IMG/VR virus record: IMGVR_UViG_3300036850_000105
Coordinates: 1-64,000 of that record
Length of the DNA: 64,000 nucleotides
Origin: a virus
Strand: one strand, 5' to 3'
Shown: positions 8,312 through 17,768 of the stretch, one piece after another
Numbering within the stretch: the first letter of the stretch is position 1
How the letters are laid out: every line of letters starts with the position of its first letter
Made by a program: the position numbers and the translations under genes
Notes under the pieces: generated by a model
What the model saw: only the letters and a program-made list of their open reading frames with translations
Databases searched by the model: none
What the model was told of the DNA's origin: nothing

Positions 8312-8635
8312 ATGAGCGACGCCGAGTTCCCGGGCCCGGAGCTGTTTGAGGGGTTCCTCACGGCTCATGACATCAAGCGGGAGGCGGCCGGCGAGGCGCT
8401 TGGCGTCTCCAGAATGACCATCTGGTCCTGGATAAACCGCGAGTCGGTTCCGTCTGAGCAGTCGCGCCACGACATCGGAATTTGGACGAATGGCGCGGTA
8501 CCGGCCGAGAGCTGGCCCCCGTCTGCCGATCGCCGGAAGAGGGTCGTCGAGGTGGCGCCGTTTGAGCCGAAGCCGTCGGACGACGATCCGCCCGCCTCCG
8601 AATCAAAGCCAAACGGACACGAGGGGGCGGCTTGA
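8312..8635 (+). CDS. Cro/YdaS-like regulator
   Basis: 107 aa, ATG at 8312. The HTH spans about residues 17-50: LTAHDIKREAAGEALGVSRM followed by TIWSWINRESVPSEQSRHDI. The C-terminal 40 residues are charged and probably flexible. Divergent from the repressor and first gene of the rightward operon, the classical Cro position. TTG of the next gene overlaps its stop. Confidence 0.8.
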   Translation: MSDAEFPGPELFEGFLTAHDIKREAAGEALGVSRMTIWSWINRESVPSEQSRHDIGIWTNGAVPAESWPPSADRRKRVVEVAPFEPKPSDDDPPASESKPNGHEGAA

Positions 8636-9585
8636 GACGCCTGGCGCGCCCCACCACCGACACCGAACGCGCCGAGGGCTCGCGGTATGGCCGCTGGGTG
8701 CTCGTCGAGCGAGCGTCCGGCATGAAGGTTCGCGCCCGTTGCGACTGTGGCAACGAGAAGGTTGTTTACTTCTTCAATCTCCGAAGCGGAATGTCGCGGT
8801 CGTGCGGCTGTCTCGCCCGCGAGGTGTGCAGCGCGAATGCCCGCACCCACGGCGGCACGGGGACAGCCATCTACCGGATTTGGGCGGGCATGAAGGCCCG
8901 GTGTCACGGATCGCCAAGGCTGAAGCAGTTCAAGGACTACGGCGGGCGCGGGATCGCGGTCTGTCCGGAGTGGCTCGGCGATGGAGGATTCGAGCGCTTC
9001 GTAGCGGACATGGGGCCACGTCCGTCGCCGAAGCACTCGCTCGATCGCTATCCCGACAACAACGGGAACTACGAGCCGGGAAACTGTCGGTGGGCGACCG
9101 ACAAGGAGCAGGCGCGCAACACTCGCAGAAACGTCTGGCTCGAGCACGGCGGTCGCCGGATGCTCGCCACCGACTGGGCGACGGAGCTCGGCATCTCGCG
9201 TCAGGCCATCGAGCAACGAATCCGTTGGGGCTGGTCGGAGGAAAAAATCTGTACGACGCGGGGTCCCAAGCTTGCAGACGTTCTGCGCGGGCGCGTTCCC
9301 GGAACACGTAAGCTTGTGTGCAACGGAGTCCGCGACACAGTCGCGGGCTGGGAGCGACGGACCGGCGTCAACCACCGAACGATACTCACGCGTCTGAAAG
9401 CCGGTCGCTCGGTTGAGGAAGCATTGACGGTTGGCCGGCTTCCGGTGCGCCGCCGCCCGCGCGAGGCGGTTCCTCGTGTTCGGTATGACCATCCGCGCCC
9501 TCCGCGCAAACGTACCCAGTGCAGCCGATGCGCCGGCTTCGGCCACAACAAGGCCACCTGCGAAAACCAGATCAAGGCCGCCTAG
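8632..9585 (+). CDS. Zn-ribbon / HNH-like DNA-binding protein with C-terminal zinc knuckle
   Basis: 317 aa, TTG start overlapping the previous stop (TTGA). Order of parts: four-Cys N-terminal site (CDCGNEK then SCGCLAR, about 38-61), then the HNH-like core YGGRGIAVCPEW followed by LDRYPDNNGNYEPGNCRWAT (about 135-163). Two HTH-like repeats follow (ATDWATELGISRQAIEQRI and VAGWERRTGVNHRTILTRL). The protein ends in a CX2CX4HX4C knuckle, CSRCAGFGHNKATC. Core plus HTH resembles phage homing-type nucleases. A shorter paralogue lies at 17142-17768. Either a free-standing homing nuclease or a DNA-binding regulator. Confidence 0.7.
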   Translation: MRRLARPTTDTERAEGSRYGRWVLVERASGMKVRARCDCGNEKVVYFFNLRSGMSRSCGCLAREVCSANARTHGGTGTAIYRIWAGMKARCHGSPRLKQFKDYGGRGIAVCPEWLGDGGFERFVADMGPRPSPKHSLDRYPDNNGNYEPGNCRWATDKEQARNTRRNVWLEHGGRRMLATDWATELGISRQAIEQRIRWGWSEEKICTTRGPKLADVLRGRVPGTRKLVCNGVRDTVAGWERRTGVNHRTILTRLKAGRSVEEALTVGRLPVRRRPREAVPRVRYDHPRPPRKRTQCSRCAGFGHNKATCENQIKAA

Positions 9586-11662: not shown

Positions 11663-11955
11663 GCCTCCCCGTCGTCCTGATTCCACACCCTCACGTCCGA
11701 ATGGACGCGAGCGTCATGAACGGGAGCCCGTACGTCGTCGGTTCGCGCGTTCCGGTGCGTCGGATCTACGGGTTCTTCAAGGGCGGATCCAGCTTGGAGC
11801 GCATCGTCAAACGTTACCCGCAGCTCGGTGCCGCCAAGGTGATCGACGCGCTCGCCTTCGCGCTCGACAACACGGACCTGTTGGAGGCGGACATCGCTCG
11901 GGAGCAGGCCAATATCGACAGGGTGACAAGGGGCACGGAGGCGCCGAAGCCGTGA
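11659..11955 (+). CDS. DUF433-like protein
   Basis: 98 aa, GTG at 11659 (GTGA overlap). Matches the DUF433 pattern: SVMNGSPYVVGSRVPVRRIY, then FFKGGSSLERIVKRYPQL and VIDALAFALDN. DUF433 is a winged-HTH-like family often found as the antitoxin of VapC-type toxin pairs, but no PIN-domain gene is adjacent here. It may act as a stand-alone DNA-binding regulator. Confidence 0.75.
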   Translation: MSLPVVLIPHPHVRMDASVMNGSPYVVGSRVPVRRIYGFFKGGSSLERIVKRYPQLGAAKVIDALAFALDNTDLLEADIAREQANIDRVTRGTEAPKP

Positions 11956-12116
11956 TGCGCCCCACCCTCTTCACCATCCGCGCAATCCGCGCCTACTCCC
12001 GCCCGCCACGCATCTGGCTCACGTACGGGCTCGATGGCGCGGTCCGGCGGTTGCGGAGGGAGCAGAGGCGGAGCGACGAGCGGCGAACGGATTCAAGCGT
12101 TGGGAGGTGGTGTTGA
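11955..12116 (+). CDS. Hypothetical basic protein, 53 aa
   Basis: ATG at 11955 shares its A with the previous stop (TGATG). Very basic C-terminus (VRRLRREQRRSDERR). Its stop overlaps the TTG of the next gene. No family. Confidence 0.5.
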   Translation: MRPTLFTIRAIRAYSRPPRIWLTYGLDGAVRRLRREQRRSDERRTDSSVGRWC

Positions 12117-12289
12117 AACTACCCGCCGACCTCACCTTCGCCGAGCTCCGGGAGATCGTCCGTGGCATCGTCCGTGAAGAGCGCGCAGCCGAGCGTAAGC
12201 TCCGGTCCGTGAAGGCACCGACGCGCAAGGCTTCGCCGAAGCGCGTCGCCCAGGTCCGCCGCTCACTTCGTCAGTTGGGGGTCGGATGA
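12113..12289 (+). CDS. Hypothetical protein upstream of integrase, 58 aa
   Basis: TTG at 12113 with GGAGG 5 nt upstream and TTGA overlap. Helical and basic (ADLTFAELREIVRGIVREE, then a Lys/Arg-rich tail). Ends 4 bp into the integrase. Size, charge and position would fit an excisionase-like accessory, but no HTH is clear, so this is only inference. Confidence 0.6.
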   Translation: MKLPADLTFAELREIVRGIVREERAAERKLRSVKAPTRKASPKRVAQVRRSLRQLGVG

Positions 12290-13563
12290 GGCGCCAGGCC
12301 GCCACCGTCGAAGAGCACCCGAGGGGATCGGGGCGGTTCCGCGTGCGAGCTCGCGTGAAGGGCAAGCGCCCGGTCATCGCGAGGGGCCTCGGTGAAGCAG
12401 AGGCGCACGAGATCGCTGATGCCTATCACGTGGTCCGCCACGAAACCGACCAGCAGGACCGGCTCACCCTGGCGGAGTTCGGTGAGAGCTTCCTGAAGCG
12501 CCGCGAACGATCCGGCGTCCGCGCTATCCGGACGGATCGGTCTCGCTGGAGCAAGCACATCGCGAAGGCACAGATTGGTGAACTCCCGGTGGCTCAGCTC
12601 CACAGCCGCGATGTTTGGGGGTGGCTCGACGGCCTGACGGACCTCGCGTACCGCACCCAGCTCCGCCTCCTGAACCTGCTCCGGGTGGCCCTCCAAGAAG
12701 CCGTCCGCCGGCGCGTGGCCGAGACCAACCCGGCCCGAGACGTGGAAATCCACAAGGCGGCTGCCGCTCGAGCGACGGACGACCTGGAGGGCATCCTGAA
12801 CCCCGCCGAGCAACAAGCTCTAGTTGCCGCCGTACCCGTCCGGGAGCGACCCACCGTCGTCTTTGCTCTCTGCACCGGCCTCCGTCAGGCCGAGCAGTGG
12901 TGGCTCAAGTGGGAGGACGTGAAGCCCGACCGGGTGGTCGTCTCCCGCTCCGCCGATGGCCTGCCGACGAAGAGCGGGAAGCCTCGCCCGGTGCCCCTGC
13001 TGCCTCCAGCGCTCGCCGCCCTGGAGGCCCTCCCGCGGCGCTCCCCGTGGGTCTTCCCTGCCCTTCGCGGGTCACGCCGAGCGAACGGCAAGCCGCCTCG
13101 CGGCTGGGCGAAGTGGGTCAAGGCGGCCGGTATCAAGCGCCCGATCCGCTGGCACGATCTCCGGCACACCTGCGCGACCTCGCTCCTAGCGGGTTGGTGG
13201 GGACGGAAGTGGTCGCTCGACGAAGTTTGCTCGCTGCTCGGACACTCGTCGGTGCAGGTGACGGAGCGGTACGCGCGGAAGCTAGACAGCACGCTGGAGG
13301 CCGCAGTCATTGGGACCACTGGTCCCACGGTCCCGACGCTGAAAGCGTCTAACCACTTGAGCCGACTGTCGGATTTGAACCGACGACCTGTGCTTTACGA
13401 AAGCGCTGGAGAGGGGAAGGAAAACGCGAGGGTAGGTAAGCCGGTGGTCACACCCAGTGACCTCCATGACGACGCCGACTACTCCTTCGAGTGGGCCGCC
13501 ACCCTAGCCGAACACCAAGAGCGGGCTGAGGCCTTCGCCGCCATCGGGGGAGGGTCGAGGTGA
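12286..13563 (+). CDS. int: Tyrosine integrase
   Basis: 425 aa, ATG at 12286. Arm-binding and core-binding domains occupy about 1-165. The catalytic domain carries the full set: Arg200 (CTGLRQAEQWWL), Lys229 (TKSGK), His290 and Arg293 (WHDLRHTCATSLL), His320 (LGHSSVQV) and the nucleophile Tyr329 (TERYARK). After the catalytic Tyr there is an unusually long C-terminal extension of about 95 residues. Residues 358-373 are encoded by a sequence that, on the other strand, reads as the 3' half of a tRNA-Thr gene (see 13358-13404). The stop overlaps the C5 methylase start. Confidence 0.95.
   Translation: MRRQAATVEEHPRGSGRFRVRARVKGKRPVIARGLGEAEAHEIADAYHVVRHETDQQDRLTLAEFGESFLKRRERSGVRAIRTDRSRWSKHIAKAQIGELPVAQLHSRDVWGWLDGLTDLAYRTQLRLLNLLRVALQEAVRRRVAETNPARDVEIHKAAAARATDDLEGILNPAEQQALVAAVPVRERPTVVFALCTGLRQAEQWWLKWEDVKPDRVVVSRSADGLPTKSGKPRPVPLLPPALAALEALPRRSPWVFPALRGSRRANGKPPRGWAKWVKAAGIKRPIRWHDLRHTCATSLLAGWWGRKWSLDEVCSLLGHSSVQVTERYARKLDSTLEAAVIGTTGPTVPTLKASNHLSRLSDLNRRPVLYESAGEGKENARVGKPVVTPSDLHDDADYSFEWAATLAEHQERAEAFAAIGGGSR
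13358..13404 (-). other. Putative attP: 3' half of a tRNA-Thr(CGT) gene
   Basis: Read on the minus strand: anticodon loop TTCGTAA (anticodon CGT), the 3' anticodon stem, a variable segment, a perfect T-arm (GTCGG TTCAAAT CCGAC) and acceptor AGTCGGC plus TCA. The 5' half of a tRNA is absent, and the anticodon stem already has a mismatch on its 5' side. Phages integrating into tRNA genes carry exactly this kind of 3'-end copy to restore the tRNA. Crossover should fall in or just beyond the anticodon loop. Confidence 0.75.
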
Positions 13564-14303
13564 GCCAACTGGTCCTCTCCCTGTTCCCCGGCGCCGACCT
13601 GCTCGGGATGGCCTTTGAGCTCGAGGGCTTCTGCGTGGTCCAAGGTCCCGACGTTCAGTTCGGGCGGGACGTAAAGGACTTTCATCCGCCGGCGGGAAGG
13701 TTCGACGGGGTGATCGGGGGGCCGCCCTGCCAGGCGTTCTCGCAGCTTCGGACCCAGCACCCAGGGCGCGCGCCGGCGTGGAACGGGATCCCCGAGTTCG
13801 AGCGTGTCGTCGCGGAGGCGCGCCCGGACTGGTTCGTCATGGAGAACGTCCGACAGGCGCCGCTACCAGTGGTCACCGGCTACGCGACGACCGCCGCACT
13901 CTTTCAGAATCGCTGGCTCGGTGAGGAGCAGAGCCGTCTCAGACGCTTCACGCTCGGAGCTCGCGGCGCCAGTACCCCCCCCTCGCTCTACTCGGCACTG
14001 ACGCACGACTTCGTCGTCTTCGAGAACGTCGACAAGGCCGGGTGCTTCACGGCGAACGGTTCACAGTGGGAGCCCGGCATCGACAACGGCAACCGAAAGG
14101 GTCGCTCCCGCTCCGTCCGTACCGACGCCGAATTCCGCCGCGGGTGCCGGCTCCAGGGCTTGCCCGAGACGTTCCTGGAAGACGCACCGTTCACCGTCGA
14201 AGGCAAGATCCGCCTCGTCGGCAACGCTGTGCCTTTGCCCATGGGTCGGGCCGTTGCCCGGGCGGTGAAGCGGTGTCTTGGCCTGGAAACGGAGGCCGCA
14301 TGA
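13560..14303 (+). CDS. C5-cytosine DNA methyltransferase (short)
   Basis: 247 aa, GTG at 13560 (GTGA overlap with int). Motifs: degenerate SAM motif I SLFPGADLLGMAFELEG, catalytic GGPPCQAFSQ with Cys57, ENV at 95-97 (FVMENV), QSRLRRF at 124-130, and GNAVP near residue 217. Shorter than typical Dcm-type enzymes, with a reduced target-recognition region. Predicted to methylate phage or host DNA; no cognate endonuclease is adjacent, so it is probably an anti-restriction orphan. Confidence 0.85.
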   Translation: MSQLVLSLFPGADLLGMAFELEGFCVVQGPDVQFGRDVKDFHPPAGRFDGVIGGPPCQAFSQLRTQHPGRAPAWNGIPEFERVVAEARPDWFVMENVRQAPLPVVTGYATTAALFQNRWLGEEQSRLRRFTLGARGASTPPSLYSALTHDFVVFENVDKAGCFTANGSQWEPGIDNGNRKGRSRSVRTDAEFRRGCRLQGLPETFLEDAPFTVEGKIRLVGNAVPLPMGRAVARAVKRCLGLETEAA

Positions 14304-14818
14304 CGCAGCACGCGCTCTTTCTCGACCCGTCGGAGCCGTCGTGCGCGCTCTCTGCGTGCGGACGTTACCGCTACACGCTGCGCATTCCGCTCACCGCCGA
14401 TCGTCGCGGGGTCTGCCTGTTCGTGATGGCCAATCCGAGCACCGCGATCGTCACGGACGGCGTCTTTGCGTCCGACCCGACCGTCACGCGCTGCATGAAC
14501 TTCGCGCGACGCTGGGGCTGCGGGACGCTCATCGTGGAGAACGTGCGGGCGTGGCGGGAAACGGACCCGGACAAGGTGCCGCCTGACCCGTTGGCAATCG
14601 GACCGGAGAACGACGCGCGGATCCGGCGCTCTGCCAAGGAGGCCGACATCGTGGTTTGCGGTTGGGGAAAGCTCGGTGGTGAGCGAGGCCGCGCAGTCCT
14701 CCGAATGCTCGCCGAAGTGTGCGCGCCGACGGCGCTGAAGCTCAACGGCGATGGGAGCCCTGCGCACCCGCTCTACCTCGCGGCTGACCTCAAGCCGTTC
14801 CCGATGGGGGCCGCATGA
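14300..14818 (+). CDS. DUF1643 protein
   Basis: 172 aa, ATG at 14300 (ATGA overlap). Matches the family through YRYTLRIPL, LFVMANPSTAIVTDG, DPTVTRCMNFARRWGCG, and a later VVCGWGK. DUF1643 is widespread in phages and bacteria and has no established function. Operon position beside methylases suggests an accessory DNA-related role, which is inference. Confidence 0.85.
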   Translation: MTQHALFLDPSEPSCALSACGRYRYTLRIPLTADRRGVCLFVMANPSTAIVTDGVFASDPTVTRCMNFARRWGCGTLIVENVRAWRETDPDKVPPDPLAIGPENDARIRRSAKEADIVVCGWGKLGGERGRAVLRMLAEVCAPTALKLNGDGSPAHPLYLAADLKPFPMGAA

Positions 14819-15066
14819 GCGCCAAGGTCATCCCGATTTCGGACCGCGTCGCCCGCCTCCTTTCCCCACCCACCGGTGGCGTCCGCTTCGAAGCCGTCGT
14901 GGGCGGCGGCATCTGCTTCACCTGGCGGAACGATGACGGGGAGGTCGACCTCTACTTCGGGATCGATGAGGCGGCGGGGCTTGCGCGGCAGCTTGCCGAC
15001 GCAATCGACCTCGCGGCGGAGTTGGTGAGGGCGGAGCGGGAGGAGAGGGGCGGGTGTGAGACGTGA
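14815..15066 (+). CDS. Hypothetical protein, 83 aa
   Basis: ATG at 14815 (ATGA overlap). Beta-rich N-terminal half (FEAVVGGGICFTWRNDDGEV) and helical C-terminus. The stop overlaps the GTG of tnpB. No family recognised. Confidence 0.65.
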   Translation: MSAKVIPISDRVARLLSPPTGGVRFEAVVGGGICFTWRNDDGEVDLYFGIDEAAGLARQLADAIDLAAELVRAEREERGGCET

Positions 15067-16241
15067 CCAGGAGCCAGTCCCTGTGCCGCGCCATGCGATT
15101 CCGCGTCTACCCGACGGTGCATCAGGAGCGCCGACTTTTGGCATGGGAGTCGGCGCTGCGCTTCGTCTGGAATCTGGCGAACGAACAAAGGCTGATGGGC
15201 CTCGCTGGGCCATGGGGCGAGCGCGTCTTTCCGTCTGAGTTCTCTCAATCGCGCGAGGCGACCGAACTCCGCGCTGTGCTGCCATGGCTTTCGGACCTTC
15301 CGCGCGAGTCGATAACGTTTGTTCTGCGCCGGCTCCACGACGCCTGGCGTCGCTGTTTCTCACGCGTCAGCAAGCGCCCAGGCTTCAAGGTGAAGAGGCG
15401 CGACGTTGTGAGCATCGGGCTCAACCACCGGTACTGCCGCATTGAAGGCCAGACGGTGAAGCTGCCGAAGCTCGGCCCGTTGCGCATCGTCGCCCACCGC
15501 CCGCTGGTTGGGAAGTCGCGCGCGGTCTCTCTCGTTCGCGAAGGCGACCAGTGGTTCGCGGTGTTCGTTCGTGAGATAGAGGCGCCGAAGCCCGCTCGCC
15601 TCCCCGGCGCTGTCGCCCTCGACCGCGGCATCGTCTCCCTGGTCACCGACTCCGACAGCAAGACGATCGAAGGCCCCCGCTTCGCCGAGCGCTCCGCTCG
15701 CAAGCTGAAGCGGGCACAGCGCGCTCTCGCGCGCACCAAGAAAGGTTCTAGCAACCGAGCGAAGGCTCGGGAGCGACTGGCGCTGGTCCACCGAACGGTG
15801 AGGCGCCAGCGGGCATGGCTCCAGCATCAGATCAGTCACGACTACGCCAATAGCCACGGCACGGTCGTCATTGAGAAGCTGGAGACCGCCCGGATGACCC
15901 GAAGCGCCAAGGGTTCCGTCGATGCACCCGGACGGAACGTCAAGGCGAAGGCCGGCTTGAACCGAAGCATTCTCGACGCCGGATGGTCCGGCCTTGCGGA
16001 AAAGCTCCGGTACAAGCTGGAAGAGCGAGGTGGCGAGCTCGTCGAAGTTCCGGCCGCCTACAGCTCGCAAACGTGCTCCGCGTGTGGCGTCGTTGACGCT
16101 GCCTCGCGCCGCACACAATCCGCGTTCTGCTGTGTTGCTTGCGGGCACCAGGAGAACGCGGACACGAACGCTGCGCGGGTGATTCTCAGCCGGTGGAACC
16201 CACCGGTTCAGCCTGTGGAGGCATGCGATGGCGCGGCCTGA
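15063..16241 (+). CDS. tnpB: TnpB RNA-guided nuclease (IS200/IS605-type accessory)
   Basis: 392 aa. The N-terminal helical/beta region begins RFRVYPTVHQERRLLAW. The split RuvC site is complete: Asp187 (ALDRGIVSL), Glu271 (VVIEKLE) and Asp367 (ENADTNAARVIL). The zinc finger has Cys338/Cys341 (TCSACG) and Cys357/Cys360 (CVACG). Known TnpBs are DNA nucleases guided by an omega-RNA that starts within the 3' end of the gene and extends past it. No tnpA is adjacent. GTG start is coupled to the preceding gene (GTGA), and the next gene's ribosome site lies inside its 3' end. This looks like a gene fitted into the phage operon rather than a fresh insertion. Confidence 0.9.
   Translation: MTRSQSLCRAMRFRVYPTVHQERRLLAWESALRFVWNLANEQRLMGLAGPWGERVFPSEFSQSREATELRAVLPWLSDLPRESITFVLRRLHDAWRRCFSRVSKRPGFKVKRRDVVSIGLNHRYCRIEGQTVKLPKLGPLRIVAHRPLVGKSRAVSLVREGDQWFAVFVREIEAPKPARLPGAVALDRGIVSLVTDSDSKTIEGPRFAERSARKLKRAQRALARTKKGSSNRAKARERLALVHRTVRRQRAWLQHQISHDYANSHGTVVIEKLETARMTRSAKGSVDAPGRNVKAKAGLNRSILDAGWSGLAEKLRYKLEERGGELVEVPAAYSSQTCSACGVVDAASRRTQSAFCCVACGHQENADTNAARVILSRWNPPVQPVEACDGAA
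16190..16206 (+). other. Hairpin at the tnpB 3' end, possible omega-RNA element
   Basis: CCGGTGG AAC CCACCGG: a perfect 7-bp stem with a 3-nt loop, 35 bp before the tnpB stop. Stable hairpins at this place are characteristic of the omega-RNA/right-end region of tnpB elements. The guide boundary downstream cannot be fixed by eye. Confidence 0.4.
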
Positions 16242-16751: not shown

Positions 16752-17158
16752 TGAGCGCCCCCATCCGCTTCCAGCTCTCCCGTCGCAAGGGCTACCGCAA
16801 GCCAGAGGGTGGCGTCGTGTGTACGCGTGCGAGCCGATGGGGCAACCCGCACAAGGTAGCGGACGTGTTTCTCGAGATGCTTCGCGCGATTCCAGAGAGC
16901 GAGCGACCGAAGTATCGAAGCATTGACCACGGGAATCTGCTTCTTGAGGCCACGCGCGCCGCGATCAATCGATTCAGCGCCGACCTCTACGCCGGCAAAC
17001 TCCGGGTGACCGTTGATGACGTGAGGCGTGAATTACGGGGAAAGTCGCTCGGCTGTTTTTGCGCGCTCCCGGCCGAGGGACAGTTGGACTTGTGCCACGC
17101 GGCGATCCTACTTGAAATCAGCAACCAGGAGGACGACGGCGGTGCCGAAGAAGCTTGA
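16751..17158 (+). CDS. DUF4326-like protein
   Basis: 135 aa, GTG at 16751. Shows the DUF4326 signature: GVVCTRASRWGNPHKV near residue 20, a helical middle, and ELRGKSLGCFCALPAEGQLDLCHAAIL with the Cys/His cluster expected near the end. Found in many phages and plasmids; biochemical role not established. Confidence 0.8.
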   Translation: MSAPIRFQLSRRKGYRKPEGGVVCTRASRWGNPHKVADVFLEMLRAIPESERPKYRSIDHGNLLLEATRAAINRFSADLYAGKLRVTVDDVRRELRGKSLGCFCALPAEGQLDLCHAAILLEISNQEDDGGAEEA

Positions 17159-17768
17159 GCTATCTGGCATGTCATTCGGCAGGCTCTCTGTCATCTCTGA
17201 ATCTGGCCGTGACAAGCACGGAGCCACGCTGTGGGCTTGTCGCTGCGCTTGTGGTGCCACGTCCGTTGTGCGTGGCGCAACCCTGGCAAGCGGTCGCGCT
17301 CGGTCTTGCGGGTGTGGTGTTCTGGAAGCAGCCCGGCTTCCAAAGAAGCATGGCGCAACCAAGTCAGCGCTCTACCGCCGTTGGCAAGCAATGAAGGCCA
17401 GGTGCGGCAACGAAAAAGGCTCCGAGTTCCACAACTACGGCGGACGTGGGATAACTGTGTGTCCGCGCTGGCTGCATTCGTTCGAGAACTTTGCTGCCGA
17501 CATGGTGGCTGAGTTCTCAGAAGACCTGGAACTCGATCGCGTCGACGTGAACGGCAACTACGAGCCGGGCAACTGTCGCTGGGCGACCCGCAAAGTTCAA
17601 CAGCGAAACAAGCGCGACAACCACTTCGTCACAATTGGAGCCAAGACCCAGACCGTTCAGGATTGGGCTGAACAACTAGGGATCAAGCCCAATACCATTG
17701 TGACCAGGTTGCGCCGCGGGTGGGACGTTGCTGATGCATTGAAGGTCGCGAACGGAGGCGAGCCATGA
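17142..17768 (+). CDS. Zn-ribbon / HNH-like DNA-binding protein (paralogue)
   Basis: 208 aa, GTG at 17142 with AGGAGG about 9 nt upstream; overlaps the previous gene by 17 bp. Same architecture as 8632-9585 without the knuckle: Cys4 site (CRCACGATS then SCGCGV), core YGGRGITVCPRWL with LDRVDVNGNYEPGNCRWAT, then one HTH (VQDWAEQLGIKPNTIVTRL). Its sequence looks less GC-biased than its neighbours, suggesting separate acquisition. Homing-type nuclease or regulator. Confidence 0.7.
   Translation: MPKKLELSGMSFGRLSVISESGRDKHGATLWACRCACGATSVVRGATLASGRARSCGCGVLEAARLPKKHGATKSALYRRWQAMKARCGNEKGSEFHNYGGRGITVCPRWLHSFENFAADMVAEFSEDLELDRVDVNGNYEPGNCRWATRKVQQRNKRDNHFVTIGAKTQTVQDWAEQLGIKPNTIVTRLRRGWDVADALKVANGGEP

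Follow-up and report, generated by a model that had tools for sequence, protein, structure and literature searches.

The closest described counterpart of the locus reported here is that of the myxophage Mx8, in which attP lies within int and integration makes a new 3' end for the gene; a review of the myxophages reports that the Mx8 enzyme stays active after integration with altered specificity, and gives a similar principle for Mx9 (PMC6070905). The Islander paper also describes the integrases of Mx8 and SSV as extending across attP (PMC4383910). In the SSV-type "suicidal" integrases the recombination site lies in int and integration splits the gene, and a review of archaeal recombinases considers such self-disrupting integrases exclusive to archaea (PMC8371274). 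Mycobacteriophage BPs carries attP in its repressor gene, from which the prophage makes a product that is C-terminally shorter than the virion-encoded one (PMC4557955).

We analysed a 64,000 nt stretch of DNA (the window) belonging to a 65,774-base virus record. Its integrase resembles ordinary tRNA-targeting integrases of the Islander type insofar as a tRNA 3' half lies at attP, the tRNA is rebuilt on integration and int is located beside attP (PMC4383910), but differs in that int normally ends before attP in those elements. The original prediction for this locus took mycobacteriophage repressors as its precedent; Mx8 is nearer, since attP inside int was described there decades ago (PMC6070905, PMC4383910). 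The principle is thus already known from Mx8, which has hitherto been an isolated oddity, and the window is a further case. The present data add breadth across a clade, a stop codon supplied by the tRNA D-arm, and signs of selection on some of the phage-only tails; clade-wide occurrence, the D-arm stop and conserved tails were not found described in the open-licence literature searched.

The tRNA half within the window integrase gene

The int gene at 12286..13563 (plus strand, free-phage form, stop codon at 13561-13563) encodes a tyrosine integrase of 425 aa, identified from its open reading frame and by Pfam, PHROG and Foldseek comparison. Its product matches Pfam PF00589 Phage_integrase over residues 166-334 (E 5.9e-21) and phrog_1 integrase (E 3.6e-49), and its predicted fold matches those of the lambda and Tn1549 integrases (Foldseek, E 1e-10 to 1e-11). 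The R...HxxR...H...Y pattern of tyrosine recombinases is present in the Phage_integrase domain, and the catalytic residues R200, D-L-R-H 291-294 (including R293), H320 and Y329 are invariant in alignment A1 of 9 members; the codon of the catalytic Tyr329 is at 13270..13272 (plus strand). AlphaFold2 models the core of the protein confidently, predicts residues 343-404 to be disordered (pLDDT below 50) and places a possible C-terminal helix, of low confidence (pLDDT ~50), at residues 400-421 of the free form (13483..13548, plus strand).

Antisense to int codons 358-373, and beginning 29 residues past Tyr329 as the original prediction had correctly placed it, is the 3' half of a tRNA-Thr(CGT) on the minus strand at 13359..13404. 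This core spans the anticodon stem-loop through the acceptor 3' strand and discriminator, and the part of Int that it encodes in antisense falls within the predicted disordered linker. The minus strand of 13358-13404 reads GCTTTCGTAAAGCACAGGTCGTCGGTTCAAATCCGACAGTCGGCTCA, with an anticodon loop TTCGTAA, a 5-nt variable loop and an acceptor strand AGTCGGC. Its T-arm GTCGGTTCAAATCCGAC (13368..13384, minus strand) has the form GTCGG-TTCAAAT-CCGAC, in which 5/5 stem pairs are Watson-Crick. When both strands of the 64 kb were scanned for a T-arm pattern, defined as GTTCRANYC with five paired stem positions, the only occurrence was the one in the int core. The tRNA half proposed within int is confirmed by this T-arm, by the anticodon loop and by a 46/46 match to the tRNA of a related provirus, described below. 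The position of the segment also stands; its limit needs a small correction, as identity to the host tRNA begins at 13359 and not at 13358, meets a mismatch at 13405 and continues for 3 nt more, giving 50 nt at 98%. According to ARAGORN the window lacks an intact tRNA, and 13359-13404 is therefore the phage-borne half (attP) and not attL. A search for arm-type repeats flanking the core gave short two-copy pairs only, with no convincing set.

The exact 46-nt core occurs in only two contigs among the 2.9 million viral contigs of IMG/VR that were scanned. One (L002/L096) represents the same phage in a longer assembly (82.5 kb), with an identical int; the other (L003/L097) is a different provirus, in which the core lies within a nearly complete host tRNA gene. 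Because the tRNA junction of this provirus carries the same 46 nt, the segment is a real attachment core, common to two phages.

C-terminal exchange in integrated relatives

The provirus L003 shows the integrated form of such a system. Its integrase is 61% identical to the window Int, and the tRNA at the provirus end matches the window core 13359..13404 in 46/46 positions. The L003 int gene runs through the core and into the antisense of the host 5' tRNA half, where it ends at a TAA in the antisense of TTAGCTCAG, part of the D-arm; outside the core, the tails of the window and L003 int genes differ. The lysogen form of the window Int was predicted by attaching the host half from L003 to the window int, with only the flanks joined. 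In this graft Int is shortened from 425 to 379 aa and ends PVLYESTALPLS, having lost the last 52 phage codons (the phage-only tail, 13405..13560, plus strand) and gained 6 host-encoded residues (TALPLS). The original prediction that integration rewrites the integrase C-terminus thus stands for the related prophages, where the C-terminus is replaced, but the change is mainly a truncation, and the host-encoded tail that had been expected on the lysogen Int amounts to these six residues and nothing substantial.

A replaced C-terminus was found in the integrated relatives L003, L024, L110, L013, L015-L019, L023, L030, L085 and G005. A comparison of free and integrated tails, as had been suggested, was possible for the tRNA-less viral contig L119 and for L024, which is from a Myxococcaceae MAG and sits at a tRNA-Arg: the two are 87% identical over 1300 bp and part at the core. 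The suggested search for a prophage with split attL and attR found both ends of one in Polyangium sp. 6x1 (L017, G005). Direct repeats of 47 bp lie at both ends of this prophage, 34 kb apart; at the int-side copy the lysogen int has its stop within the tRNA (Int ending ...PEADALSS), and when the ends are joined the ORF regains a 122-aa tail, so that the exchange is visible directly from the two prophage ends. A second Polyangium genome (G004) has an int contig without a second core, and pairing it with partners on other contigs gave inconsistent tails; it was set aside.

At 16 loci the int ORF extends into an intact tRNA that lies on the other strand. The int stop codon is inside the tRNA in 11 of these, and eight of the 11 stops are a TGA antisense to tRNA positions 14-12 in the conserved D-arm. 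The remaining five loci (L020, L027, L028, L117 and L035) read through the tRNA. Together with four short-tailed members of the clade described below, these five show that the D-arm stop and the long tail are not universal. At L020:1841-3550 the int ORF meets no stop in two successive host tRNA genes, Arg-TCT and Pro-TGG, both of which it reads in antisense.

Small elements in two Myxococcales MAGs (G006 and G007) carry repeats of 46-47 bp, and their displaced core is followed by a short tail rich in Cys. Those at L204 and L205 (G006:C8 and G007:C149) are ~5-10 kb in length and carry the same type of int. In G007 two displaced cores are found 1.1 kb apart, from tandem or decayed elements, and a conserved CxxC...CxxC tail follows each of the two.

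From these relatives we infer the same exchange for the window phage, whose int has the anatomy for it; that 13359-13404 is the attP core and that the C-terminus is swapped on integration is very probable. As in Mx8, attP is an antisense tRNA 3' half within int and lies 3' of the catalytic Tyr codon (codons 358-373 in the window), and the different C-terminus of integrated relatives (L003; L024 against L119; both ends of G005) parallels the new int 3' end that Mx8 acquires on integration in its myxobacterial host. We located the Mx8 core at ~6460 in AF396866. The two systems differ in that the window and Mx8 Ints are ~24% identical over part of their length only, Mx8 retains ~105 aa past the core against 52 in the window, the tRNA cores are different, and the tails have no significant similarity. 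An SSV-like suicidal integrase was considered and rejected, all window catalytic residues being upstream of the core and the catalytic part not severed: whereas the SSV-type int is cut into two inactive pieces, the window catalytic core stays whole because the site follows the catalytic Tyr, and the tail alone is exchanged. A site within the recombinase gene is not peculiar to archaeal elements, though the catalytic part is unbroken here. In BPs the free-form tail is an ssrA-like degron, whereas the gene in the window is an integrase and its tail, ending GGGSR, lacks an ssrA-like end.

The integrase clade and its phage-only tails

Relatives were drawn from viral contigs and from one genome per prokaryote species, and a maximum likelihood tree was constructed from the catalytic parts only. 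With support of 100/100, the window groups with viral contigs and mostly Myxococcota genomes in a clade that numbers 46 rows. A strict T-arm is present inside the int ORF in 34 of the 46 rows, which is a lower bound because the strict scan misses real cores in L100, L106, L110 and L127; in eight further rows the tail is long but no strict T-arm is found, although an antisense tRNA can be recognised in several of these, and four (L022, L115, L125 and L128) have short tails. An int gene with an internal antisense tRNA 3' half is a family trait, found in nearly all members of this clade. Outside the clade the arrangement is found in one of 58 rows, that of Mx8, and in none of the 57 other full-length rows; these integrases typically stop ~20-45 residues past the Tyr, in most rows before attP. 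The tree places the Mx8 Int itself outside the clade, at the end of a very long branch, but the AU test does not reject a clade that includes it (p 0.54).

Within the clade, 25-67 residues mostly separate the Tyr from the start of the T-arm. On viral contigs without a tRNA, int reads on for 140-330 nt beyond the T-arm, and 39-104 further phage-encoded residues are retained; such a contig is called free here insofar as no intact tRNA is present in it, and not from virion sequencing. The targets include tRNA-Thr(CGT), Arg(CCG, CCT, ACG, TCT), Gly(CCC), Cys(GCA) and Trp(CCA). All three frames are used to read the antisense tRNA (12/10/10), so that the constraint on the core is one of DNA and not of protein. 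On these data, an integrase C-terminus that reports the state of the phage, free or integrated, seems to be the general arrangement across a broad Myxococcota clade that spans many tRNA targets and three antisense frames and borrows its stop codon from conserved tRNA sequence.

Three partial integrase matches from other phyla (L054, L072 and L079), too short for the tree, also have ORFs that read into an antisense tRNA, so the arrangement may extend beyond the clade. One contig of 52,618 bases was recovered twice, in a "Gammaproteobacteria" MAG (L014) and as an IMG/VR virus (L112). As it carries a free-form int and no intact tRNA, it probably derives from a phage and was binned with the MAG, in which case it is no evidence of a gammaproteobacterial host.

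Some of the tails show signs of being selected protein. The sister tails of L004 and L007 are 55% identical (E 7e-13) with dN 0.41, dS 2.27 and dN/dS 0.18, and their changes fall 42 times in third, 20 times in first and 21 times in second codon positions; the attR tails of G006 and G007 have dN/dS of 0.23-0.31. Where the tail dS is near or above 1 it is saturated, and those ratios are rough. The tails of L122, L112, L116, L111 and the Polyangium prophage G005 are homologous (E 2e-8 to 1e-3, and 2e-8 to 1e-4 for L122, L112 and L116), and AlphaFold2 predicts a helical hairpin at 365-405 in that of L122 (pLDDT ~84). For the window's own tail, selection as a protein is only suggested: it has no significant match to the other tails, with shuffled decoys scoring equally, and most other tails likewise lack recognisable kin in another subgroup, their scores being like those of shuffled decoys. 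No domains were found in the tails in Pfam or PHROGs. The codon composition of the L119 tail is odd, and its free form may therefore be degenerate.

Possible roles of the exchange, host and neighbouring genes

The mechanism that we propose begins with a temperate phage that would integrate into a host tRNA-Thr(CGT) gene. Its free Int of 425 aa would have, after the catalytic part, a disordered linker, the central portion of which the antisense tRNA determines, and then a phage-encoded tail of 52 residues in which a helix is predicted. Made from the circular phage DNA, this long Int would act on attP in its own gene, with recombination probably taking place across the anticodon loop, where identity ends. 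At attL the tRNA would be rebuilt antisense to the int 3' end, and the lysogen int would read the host 5' tRNA half as far as a stop that lies antisense to the conserved D-arm (TTAGCTCA giving TGAGCTAA), yielding a tail-less Int of ~379 aa. At attR, the headless core and tail and the coupled methylase gene would lie at the other prophage end, and excision would bring back the long form.

What the tail would do can be suggested by analogy. It may aid integrative recombination, or assembly, by the Int made from circular DNA, with the tail-less Int differing in activity or specificity in the way described for Mx8 (PMC6070905), and we give this not quite an even chance. The original prediction had likewise envisaged a possible switch for directionality or stability. 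Somewhat more tentatively, the C-terminus could act as a sensor of the integration state: the phage-only tail would be selected though it is cut off, the D-arm antisense would give the stop, and the exchange would replace part of the work of a recombination directionality factor. The type of tail would then vary by subgroup as a helix, a helical hairpin or a Cys-rich knuckle, a point on which we are equally hesitant. As the D-arm that gives the stop is near-universal, such a switch would be usable at nearly all tRNA genes. The long and short forms of Int in the clade make up many natural pairs for testing the role of the C-terminal tail.

It is also possible, but unlikely, that attP lies in int for compactness, which keeps the enzyme and its site in one transferable module, and that the tail is passive read-through whose loss has no function. 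The wide variation of tails among subgroups, with that of the window matching nothing, the antisense tRNA readable in all three frames, and the members that are short-tailed or read through the tRNA are consistent with such an origin, but the amino-acid constraint on the tails of several sister pairs, the folded hairpin predicted in L122 and the recognisable homology of the tails in L112, L116, L122, L111 and G005 argue against it. Protein-level constraint would also be left unexplained if the effect of integration were transcriptional, with an active host tRNA gene, convergent with the int 3' end, lowering int expression in the lysogen. The rebuilt tRNA does overlap the int 3' end on the opposite strand in every integrated locus, and the free phage has no tRNA promoter, but any int ending at a tRNA has the same antisense overlap, and we regard this explanation as improbable.

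More doubtful still is a degradation tag of the BPs type, by which the free Int would be unstable and the lysogen Int stable. The same geometry governs the BPs repressor through an ssrA-like tag (PMC4557955), and some free tails have small nonpolar ends (...GAA in L004 and L126, ...VVA in L009), whereas the last residues are GGGSR in the window tail and charged or polar in several others, with no terminal motif common to them. We give least credence of all to an accidental likeness to a tRNA, or to a captured piece of tRNA that plays no part in integration. In their favour are the presence of no more than half a tRNA and the absence of an exact host attB from the genome collections. Both are effectively refuted by the single T-arm in 64 kb, which is placed exactly in the core, by the 46 nt shared exactly with the junction of a related provirus, and by the same site in dozens of relatives.

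The host of the window phage is probably in Myxococcota. No exact attB was found in the 379 Myxococcota species sampled, nor in the order of the nearest match, and the window phage itself was not found in integrated form. The alignment of the core with candidate-host tRNA-Thr(CGT) genes that the original prediction called for thus gave a complete match in L003 (46/46), but the best matches among genomes, in tRNA-Thr(CGT) genes of two Myxococcota, have 3 mismatches. Neither of the conditions under which the original prediction would have failed applies: a matching host tRNA-Thr gene exists, at L003, and the related prophages sit at tRNA genes.

Immediately 3' of int is a DNA (cytosine-5) methylase-like gene (13560..14303, plus strand; PF00145, E 1.2e-16), whose start overlaps the int stop by 4 nt, GTGA at 13560-13563, as expected of a real operon joint. 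The methylase is coupled to the free-form int, and integration parts the two. The expectation that the genes downstream of int move to the other prophage end is true, but it holds for any attP, except for the loss of this 4-nt coupling. Further downstream are a DUF1643 protein gene (14300-14818, plus strand; E 2.6e-29) and, 3' of int and the methylase gene with the DUF1643 gene in between, a TnpB-type gene (OrfB_IS605, Cas12f1-like TNB; 15063-16241, plus strand). On the 5' side, an ORF of 60 aa (12107..12289, plus strand) overlaps the int start by 4 nt (ATGA), in the same position as the excisionase gene uoi before Mx8 int; its sequence gives no sign of an excisionase, with no match in Pfam, and in PHROGs it matches phrog_20884, of unknown function, at E 0.004. 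This ORF and a DUF433 protein gene just 5' of int (11701-11955, plus strand; PF04255, E 7.7e-14) are candidates for a regulator or directionality factor. Elsewhere in the window, the plus-strand ORFs at 8632-9585 and 17028-17768 have a Cys-rich N-terminal part and the motif YGGRGI.VCP.W...F....D......LDR...NGNYEPGNCRWA in common, and look like paralogous phage DNA-binding or HNH-like genes.
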